NCBI GenBank assembly: GCA_021324935.1
Contig: JAJPIE010000064.1
Location: 1 to 64,000 of the forward strand
Origin: Acidobacteriota bacterium
GTDB taxonomy: Bacteria; Acidobacteriota; Terriglobia; Acidiferrales; UBA7541
Direction: 5' to 3'
Length of the DNA stretch: 64,000 nucleotides
The first letter of the stretch is position 1, and every line of letters starts with the position of its first letter. The notes under the pieces were generated by a model. It was not told where the DNA came from. It saw nothing but the letters and a program-made list of their open reading frames with translations, and did no database searches. The translations under genes were made by a program, and so were the position numbers. Below are positions 46,602-50,094 of the stretch, one piece after another.

Positions 46602-46845
46602 TTACTTCGATTCGCGGATCTCCCGGCAGTTGGACGGCTGGATCGGCCGCGCGTTCATTGGATAGTGCTTCGCGAAGGCGGCCCCTTCTTCGGCGGAAAG
46701 GGTGTCCGGCGACTTCAGGACGAACCAGGTGCCCCCCTCGCTGCACGGCGGAATGTTGAGCGAACCAGCATACGTGTAATAGCCAAGATTTGCGGGCAGC
46801 AGATCCTTAACGTTCACGGTGGCGCCAGGAAGGTCCAAGGCTTTT
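46602..46845 (-). pseudogene. Alpha-carbonic anhydrase, C-terminal fragment truncated by an IS3-type element
   Basis: DLPGATVNVKDLLPANLGYYTYAGSLNIPPCSEGGTWFVLKSPDTLSAEEGAAFAKHYPMNARPIQPSNCREIRESK; upstream half absent, replaced by transposase sequence. Confidence 0.85.
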
Positions 46846-46854
46846 TATTTCTCT

Positions 46855-47462
46855 ACGGGGACGCAGCTTCACCGGTAAGCGCTTCATGCCTGTCCACTCG
46901 ATGGCTCGCTTCACCACTTCGCTGATCGGCTCCGTCTTCATGTCTCCTTTCAACTGCCATGCCTGGATGTACCGTGAAAAATCATCCAGAACCGAGATCA
47001 GGTAATACCAGCCCCAGCTCATCACGAAGAAATAACTCGCATCGCTCTGCCATTGCTCGTTCACGCGAGTCGTCTTCACGGTGTACGCCGGGCCCGCCGG
47101 AAATCTCTCCACGTTCACTTCCCGCACCAGGCCGTGGAGCTTCAGCACCCGGAACACGCTCGATTCCGAAACGCTGAACCCCCATGATCGCTGATCCAGC
47201 AAGCGATTTCGCGCGGACTCTTGTGGGGTTCCGCTCCCGCCGGCACCAAGATTCTTTCCGTTTCCTGCGGCCGTAGTCGGTTCCCAATCGTTCCTGGCTG
47301 CGGTCGCCGGTCCACCAGACCTGCTTCGCCCTCACTTCGAAAGCGACGCTGCCAGCGATAGCACGTCGAGGGAGACATTCCTAATCCCAATAGCGTCTCC
47401 TTCTTGGTCACCAGCGACCACCGCACCAATTCAATCACTTCGCGTTTCCTGTCGGGCTTCAT
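46855..47462 (-). pseudogene. IS3-type transposase orfB, frameshifted and lacking the C-terminal half
   Basis: MKPDRKREVIELVRWSLVTKKETLLGLGMSPSTCYRWQRRF..SPREIACWISDHGG (one frame) then FSVSESSVFRVLKLHGLV..NEQWQSDASYFFVMSWGWYYLISVLDDFSRYIQAWQL (another); only the first part of DDE retained. Confidence 0.82.
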
Positions 47463-47491
47463 CCGGCTGTAAGGCTTCCCGTCCAGTAGCC

Positions 47492-47929
47492 CTAATACCG
47501 GCTTTTTTTCAGTGTCAGATTTTCCAGACTCAGGTTCGCCACAAGCAGCTTCAACCGCTCATTCTCCTGCCGCAGATCATGGACGTCTTGACTGGTGGCA
47601 TCGCGTTTCGCATCTCCCCGCAAGCGACACTTGCCAGCTTCCATGAAATCTTTCGGCCACTTGGAGTAGATCGTCGGATGAATACCCTTGCGGCGACACA
47701 GATCAGCCACAGACACCTCGGCGCGAATCCCTTCCATCACGATGCGGATCTTTTCCTCGGCGGGAAATCTCCTGCGGCTGGCCTGCTTGGCCCGGCGGAT
47801 CAACTGCCGCGCCGTCTCTCCACGGCGTTCGCCAGCCCTGCCCTCGGGCAGGGCTGGCCCTCTCTCCTCACTTCCATACTCCCCTTGCTCTTCGTCCTGC
47901 TCCGGCCTCTTCCTCAGTCCCTCTTCCAT
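47492..47929 (-). CDS. IS3-type transposase orfA
   Basis: RRRFPAEEKIRIVMEGIRAEVSVADLCRRKGIHPTIYSKWPKDFMEAGKCRL..DVHDLRQENERLKLLVANLSLENLTLKKS. Confidence 0.85.
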   Translation of the reverse strand: MEEGLRKRPEQDEEQGEYGSEERGPALPEGRAGERRGETARQLIRRAKQASRRRFPAEEKIRIVMEGIRAEVSVADLCRRKGIHPTIYSKWPKDFMEAGKCRLRGDAKRDATSQDVHDLRQENERLKLLVANLSLENLTLKKSRY

Positions 47930-48107: not shown

Positions 48108-49391
48108 CTAATGAGTCGCGTTGTTTTGCGGACCAGGGTCGCCGCGTAATTTTCGCTGCAACGTCGGGATGTCGAGTTCGCCTTCCCAGCGGCTGATGGC
48201 GATGGTGGCGACCCCGTTGCCAATCACGTTGGTAATCGCGCGGCACTCGCTCATGAGCTTGTCCACGCCCAGCAGCAGCGCCAGGGAGGTGACGGGAATC
48301 CCGGGCACCATGCTGATCATGGCGGCCACTTTGACGAATGCTCCTCCCGGCACGCCGGCGCCTCCCGTGGAAGCGACCATGGCCACCAGCAGGACGCGCA
48401 CCATCTGCCCAAACGTGAACTGCACATTGCAGGCCTGCGCGAGAAAAAACACGGCCAGGGTCATATAGATATTCGCGCCGGCATTATTGAAGCTATAGCC
48501 CATAGGAAACACCAGGCCAACGGTGGATCCCGGCGAGCCGAGATTTTCGAGCTTCCGGATCATGTCTGGAATTACCGTTTCCGAAGAACTGGTGCCGAGG
48601 ACGATGAGCAATTCGTCCTTGATATACGCGATGAAGCGCAGGAGCGAAAAGCCGGAAAGCCTGGCGATGATGCCTAGAACGATGATGACGAACAAAATGC
48701 AAGCGACGAAGAAAGCGATGACGAGTTCCGCGAGATTCGATAGCGAGCTCAAATCATACTGTCCAACGGTGTAAGCCATGGCCCCAAACGCACCGATGGG
48801 AGCCAACTTTATGATGAAACGCACAATGCCAAAGGCCACTTTCGTGGCGATGTCCACCGCCGCGCCCGCTTTTTGGCCAAATTCGCCGAGCTGCACCATG
48901 GCGAACCCGCAAAGCAGCGCCAACAGAACCACCTGGAGAACATCCGTGTGAATAAAAGCGCCGACAAAGGTTTTGGGAATGAGCCCCACCAGCCAACTGG
49001 CAAGATCCTCTTGCTTTGCTTTTTCCGCAAAACCCGCCGCCTGCTGGACATGCGCGGCAGAACCTGTCGCGCTCAAGCCTATGCCCGGATGCCCGATCTG
49101 CGCCGCCAGCATCCCCACGATCAGGGTAATCGCCGACACGATGCTGAAATACACCAGTGTCTTCAATCCCACGCGGCCCAACTTCTTCATGTCCGTCATG
49201 GAGACAATTCCCTGCACCAGCACCCCGAAAATTACGGGGCCAATCATCATTTGAATCAGGGAAATGAAGGCGTCGCCGAGGGGCTTCAGGGCAACGCCGG
49301 TTTTCGGAATGAAATGGCCAACCAGAACGCCCAAAGCTATACCAACCAGCACCTGAAAATACAGGCTGGTGTACCAGGCGCGCCGCTTCAC
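48108..49391 (-). CDS. Dicarboxylate/amino acid:cation symporter (DctA/GltP family)
   Basis: LSLIQMMIGPVIFGVLVQGIVSM-type motif; GTSSSETVIPDMIRKLENLG; PMGYSFNNAGANIYMTLAVFFLAQA; STGGAGVPGGAFV. Confidence 0.94.
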   Translation of the reverse strand: MKRRAWYTSLYFQVLVGIALGVLVGHFIPKTGVALKPLGDAFISLIQMMIGPVIFGVLVQGIVSMTDMKKLGRVGLKTLVYFSIVSAITLIVGMLAAQIGHPGIGLSATGSAAHVQQAAGFAEKAKQEDLASWLVGLIPKTFVGAFIHTDVLQVVLLALLCGFAMVQLGEFGQKAGAAVDIATKVAFGIVRFIIKLAPIGAFGAMAYTVGQYDLSSLSNLAELVIAFFVACILFVIIVLGIIARLSGFSLLRFIAYIKDELLIVLGTSSSETVIPDMIRKLENLGSPGSTVGLVFPMGYSFNNAGANIYMTLAVFFLAQACNVQFTFGQMVRVLLVAMVASTGGAGVPGGAFVKVAAMISMVPGIPVTSLALLLGVDKLMSECRAITNVIGNGVATIAISRWEGELDIPTLQRKLRGDPGPQNNATH

Positions 49392-49393
49392 GG

Positions 49394-49963
49394 CTATGCT
49401 TTTTGACCTTGCTTTTCGGCCAGCACCGCGGCGAGTTCCCCCTTTTTCGTGCTGAGCGTTTTCAGCCAGCGCTGTCCGCCGGAGATGAAACCAATCCAGT
49501 AACCGATTTCAACCAGCTGGGGTTCGGTGAACTCCGCATGCAGACGCTCCCACAGGGCATCGTCAGCGCGTTCGGGGGCCCAGATGATGGTGTCCGCATA
49601 AGCGAGGGCGACTTTTTCCCGGGCGGTGAAGCGCTGGGAAGTTTCGTGGCTCGTCACTTCCGACATGCGGTCTTCTTTTGATCGCGCAGCCTGCGCGATT
49701 CCCTGGCCCGCTCAATAACTACAAGACATGCTTATGGCGATGTAAGCGCGAAGAAGTTCCTTGAGCTCCCATTCGACCGTACCTTTTCCCGGTTTGAACA
49801 GCATGTCGAAGGTCTGGGTGAAAGAGCGCATCACGTCTGGCTGGTGGGCGCGAATGGCCTGATTTTCGGGTCCCGGGCGCCCGGCCGCAATGGCGTCTTC
49901 CAGCCATTTGCGGGCCTGAGGATCGGAAACCTCGTCGGGAGTGAGATAGCTGATACGGGCCAT
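49394..49963 (-). CDS. Carboxymuconolactone decarboxylase/AhpD-like protein, putative selenoprotein with in-frame TGA (Sec) at 49712-49714
   Basis: Continuous reading frame MARISYLTPDEVSDPQARKWLEDAIAAGRPGPENQAIRAHQPDVMRSFTQTFDMLFKPGKGTVEWELKELLRAYIAISMSCSY[U]AGQGIAQAARSKEDRMSEVTSHETSQRFTAREKVALAYADTIIWAPERADDALWERLHAEFTEPQLVEIGYWIGFISGGQRWLKTLSTKKGELAAVLAEKQGQKA; TGA occupies the second Cys position of CxxC; hairpin just downstream. Confidence 0.82.
49681..49699 (-). promoter_or_regulatory. Putative bacterial SECIS element
   Basis: Minus strand: TGA-gcgggccaggga-ATCGCGCA-GGC-TGCGCGAT; perfect 8-bp stem, loop starts with GG 20 nt after the TGA. Confidence 0.7.
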
Positions 49964-50094
49964 AGGGTCACCTCGGGAGAAGGATGGTGTCATACCATAT
50001 TCTCGTAATACGGTAGACCACCCGCTCTGAACATACCTTCCTTACCATCGGGTGTCAACTGCTTTCAGAGGCCGGCCTTCATCCTTCCGGGTAT

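Follow-up and report, generated by a model that had tools for sequence, protein, structure and literature searches.

A predicted selenoprotein of the carboxymuconolactone decarboxylase/AhpD fold encoded beside dctA in an acidobacterial genome

Two open reading frames (ORFs) on the minus strand of the analyzed DNA (the window, 64,000 nucleotides from the genome of a soil member of the Acidobacteriota) raise the question of whether they are two genes or one gene in which a TGA codon is read as selenocysteine (Sec). The ORFs (49712..49993 and 49394..49666) share a frame and are linked by the TGA at 49712-49714 and the open stretch AGQGIAQAARSKEDR. That nothing else parts them, as the initial annotation had claimed, was confirmed by readthrough: the TGA is the sole interruption of a single frame at 49394-49963.

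An in-frame TGA and the gene around it

The readthrough product has 189 residues including Sec, contains the motif CSYU (C-S-Y-U), and is followed by a TAG stop (49394-49396). Translation probably starts at the ATG at 49961-49963, since similarity to homologs sets in with MARISY and a GAGGTG closely precedes this codon; the 10 residues that the longer ORF (49712..49993) has before it are probably untranslated. Standard ORF calling cuts this predicted selenoprotein gene in two. The features of the locus are as follows.

49394..49963, minus strand: predicted selenoprotein gene of the carboxymuconolactone decarboxylase (CMD)/AhpD fold (readthrough, PF02627 match spanning the TGA, orthologs)
49712..49714, minus strand: in-frame TGA, predicted to be read as selenocysteine (TGA in six relatives, TGC in five)
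49681..49699, minus strand: bSECIS-like hairpin, 8-bp stem and GGC apical loop (fold, compensated pairs, criteria of PMC13188914)
49968..49973, minus strand: Shine-Dalgarno-like GAGGTG upstream of the ATG at 49961-49963 (direct reading)
48108..49391, minus strand: dctA-like dicarboxylate/proton symporter gene (SDF family), GTG start (PF00375, NCBIfam PRK01663, adjacency in 5/5 acidobacterial loci)

Open frames flanking a TGA are not rare in the window: of its 1643 TGA codons, 36 are preceded by at least 93 open codons and followed by at least 105. Frame geometry alone is therefore weak evidence and was dropped as an argument in favour of comparative evidence.

Sec and Cys forms, the hairpin, and the Sec machinery

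The TGA had been placed at the second redox Cys of the CMD/AhpD family, and the homologs bear this out: the same codon is TGA (Sec) in six relatives and TGC (Cys) in five. The TGA relatives were four Acidobacteriota (G674/L017 with 86% identity, G563/L018, G412/L019, and G398), one Proteobacteria MAG (UBA1148/L020, genome G751; 61% identity), and one from an Actinomycetota search (G799/L072; 38%), which turned up in a search of the phylum to which Mycolicibacterium vanbaalenii belongs. The TGC forms were those of M. vanbaalenii, G1015, G761, G541, and G229. The closest relatives appear to be draft assemblies, and the named relatives are MAGs. No selA match was found in the genomes of M. vanbaalenii and G1015. 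Nearly all members of the same genus that lack a close match to the selenoprotein gene have selA, so within the genus the occurrence of the gene does not follow that of the Sec trait.

In the tree, the acidobacterial and UBA1148 Sec forms cluster (95/100), and the G799 Sec and M. vanbaalenii Cys forms branch off at an open fork, in neither the Sec nor the Cys subclade. The tree is most simply read with two Sec/Cys changes, only one of them forced by the starred branches. Just past the motif, most Cys forms are longer than the Sec forms by about one to two residues. Distant CMD/AhpD paralogues in the phylum (loci L023-L046) often have one in-frame TGA as well. Because many of these TGAs align to the column of the second motif Cys, switching between Sec and Cys seems to be common in the phylum.

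Both halves of the gene were compared for selection. In the comparison of the window with G674, dN/dS was about 0.04 before the TGA and 0.11 after it, and in the comparisons where it was computable the values ranged from 0.04 to 0.09 before and from 0.11 to 0.24 after. These values indicate that both halves are under purifying selection and that neither is decaying.

A hairpin starts 12 nt past the TGA, with an 8-bp stem, the loop GGC, and an A-U closing pair. The bSECIS model asks for a loop of 3-9 nt with G in the first two positions, a stem of 4-16 bp, a distance of 16-37 nt from the UGA, and an MFE <= -7.5 (PMC13188914). The hairpin lies within all of these bounds, as G is first in its loop, the UGA-to-loop distance is 20 nt, and the folding energy of the 50-nt segment is -17.9 kcal/mol (z -1.97). 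All eight pairs are kept across the acidobacterial sequences (100% of cells paired), and control structures slid by 1-3 columns had at most 62.5% of cells paired. Two pairs are compensated (A-U to U-A and U-A to C-G), and the encoded residues change with them (I/S and S/N). With four distinct sequences, and with the two compensated pairs lying next to each other and possibly owed to one event, the covariation is supportive and statistically not strong. Hairpins also fold downstream of the TGA in UBA1148 and G799. The mere presence of a hairpin was set aside as weak evidence, as a stem of at least 8 bp starting 10-19 nt downstream follows 2.1% of the TGAs in the window.

The Sec machinery on which the initial annotation had made its reading depend is complete in the genome (draft assembly, 4.5 Mb in 95 contigs, 91% complete). 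It comprises a tRNA-Sec with the anticodon UCA (tca; 62.3 bits, over the cut-off), SelA (550.3 bits), SelB (368.7 bits), and SelD (354.4 bits; locus G000:C46:202439-203398, L053). The SelD gene has an in-frame TGA of its own (context AAGUAAK), which makes SelD a second predicted selenoprotein of this genome.

A single change of a Cys codon from TGC to TGA would give the same DNA in a dead gene, and Cys forms do exist. Such a pseudogene is nevertheless extremely unlikely here: the TGA recurs in six relatives from different genomes, all six with selA, purifying selection acts on both sides of it, the downstream hairpin is kept with compensatory changes, and the dctA start is held at a 2-3 nt gap or an overlap. 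The conservation of the TGA and the low dN/dS already refute the pseudogene. In a draft of 95 contigs the TGA might be suspected to come from faulty sequencing or assembly, but the identical TGA is found in assemblies from other genomes, some of them in other phyla, which makes an error vanishingly improbable. The relatives, in which the initial annotation had suggested looking for error or decay, thus gave no sign of decay and had the same TGA in independent assemblies.

The locus could also hold two separate genes, or translation could truly terminate at the TGA, giving a truncated protein and an internally started one; the ATG at 49664-49666 could start the second half. We regard this as very unlikely, as the Pfam CMD match crosses the TGA, the Cys relatives are single continuous ORFs, and the stretch from the TGA to that ATG is conserved as protein. 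Reading of the UGA as something other than Sec, by general stop reassignment or near-cognate suppression, has nothing specific in its favour. It is exceedingly improbable in a genome with a Sec-type tRNA of UCA anticodon, SelA, SelB, and SelD, with the TGA at the redox Cys position, and given that in G674 this gene itself has TGA as its stop codon, overlapping the start of dctA. Conservation of the TGA, the domain match across it, SECIS covariation, low dN/dS on both sides, and the complete Sec machinery make the arrangement non-random. The proposal of a Sec-containing AhpD/CMD-like protein is upheld by the conserved TGA, the machinery, the hairpin, and purifying selection. On this comparative evidence, the gene at 49394-49963 almost certainly encodes a selenoprotein of the CMD/AhpD fold with the TGA read as Sec, and SelB would bring Sec-tRNA(UCA) to the UGA via the downstream hairpin.

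Family, fold, and likely function

Neither half had been considered a complete domain. The match to PF02627 (CMD) covers readthrough residues 42-124, across the TGA (27.1 bits, gathering cut-off 23). The same model matched 12/12 aligned family members at E <= 0.001. Two NCBIfam models were matched below their cut-offs, TIGR01926 (peroxidase-related enzyme) at 33.8 bits against 81.8, and NF053654 (GroundWater_YciW, YciW-related (seleno)protein) at 44.9 bits against an equivalog cut-off of 310. The latter is the best curated match, nearly full length and likewise described as a (seleno)protein, but its score is so far under the cut-off that the window protein belongs to a different subfamily. 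By these scores, the subfamily fits no curated protein family.

The catalytic motif of AhpD is E-C-C-H, with the His four residues past the second redox Cys. The aligned members have instead the motif E-x11-C-x-Y-[U/C]-x2-Q (the E is D in G761), with the Gln at +3 invariant in all 12 and Gly, Arg, or similar in place of the AhpD proton-relay His, which is not conserved.

The predicted fold (moderate, mean pLDDT 75, with the lowest values in segments of the N-terminal third) matches the AhpD-core structures 2prr, 3c1l, 2gmy, 7xw1, and 6ohi with TM-scores of about 0.5-0.57 by query length. A PDB search with the single sequence gave no match, whereas the family profile matched the debrominase Bmp8 (best, 5.2e-11), Atu0492, and PA0269/AhpD. 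The fold and the E-x11-C-x-x-C/U spacing are common to the window protein and AhpD and AhpD-core structures (7xw1, 2gmy, 2o4d, 2prr), but the window protein is predicted to have Sec for the second Cys. Bmp8 (6ohi) has a CxYC motif and a similar fold; it belongs to a different sequence subfamily, and nothing here points to debromination.

The product would be a helical thiol-redox protein with a Cys/Sec (CxxU) pair as its active site, most likely an oxidoreductase of the peroxidase or reductase type. Its function is best taken to be that of a CxxU dithiol-like oxidoreductase, which may act on a peroxide, a disulfide, or some other substrate; Sec insertion, redox chemistry, co-transcription, and substrate are all inferred.

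AhpD-like and CMD-like CxxU selenoproteins have been on record from 2005 onward and are catalogued (PMC1088965, PMC1794560, PMC2398784, PMC13188914). They include 27 AhpD-like sequences and one CMD-domain CxxU protein from the Sargasso Sea (PMC1088965), AhpD-like 1 and 2 from GOS (PMC2398784), and the AhpD-like entries of a 2026 review (PMC13188914); acidobacterial selenoproteins in general are also known (PMC1794560). The window protein resembles these proteins (COG2128, PF02627, TIGR01926; PMC1088965, PMC2398784, PMC13188914) in its Pfam domain, CxxU Sec position, Cys homologs, and bSECIS hairpin, and differs in its sub-threshold TIGR01926 score, in the residues at the Gln and His positions, and in the pairing of its gene with dctA. 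The kind of protein is thus already known, and what is new is the small subfamily and its fixed dctA pairing. The subfamily is a rarely encountered addition to the selenoproteins, and related bacteria carry it in Sec and in Cys form. The literature search found no paper combining selenoproteins, Acidobacteria, and carboxymuconolactone decarboxylase, and none treating Bmp8/debrominase together with AhpD.

The dctA-like partner and its surroundings

The gene at 48108-49391 (minus strand) matches PF00375 (326 bits) and the NCBIfam model PRK01663 DctA (520.6 bits, cut-off 513). The pair was found in 5/5 acidobacterial Sec loci (L061, L062, L063, L064, and the window). The dctA GTG start lies 2 nt past the selenoprotein stop in the window, G563, and G398, and 3 nt past it in G412, and it overlaps the TGA stop in G674 (GTGA). 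Outside the acidobacterial Sec clade, no dctA was found beside the gene in the fetched flanks of G751, G799, G1015, G761, G752, G541, and G229.

From this spacing and adjacency, the two genes probably form an operon in acidobacteria, with one transcript for the selenoprotein and the DctA-type dicarboxylate transporter. As a tentative and rather unlikely extension, the pair could be a dedicated unit: the DctA-like partner would import a dicarboxylate-type substrate, and the selenoenzyme, from a distinct CMD subfamily, would act on this substrate or protect it. If true, this would be a transport-coupled Sec enzyme. The transporter pairing offers a handle on the substrates of AhpD-like selenoproteins.

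At 46602-47929 (minus strand), the truncated C-terminus of a eukaryotic-type carbonic anhydrase (PF00194 positions 170-253) borders directly on transposase pieces (rve, HTH, HTH_Tnp_1), which suggests that an insertion sequence broke a carbonic anhydrase gene there.
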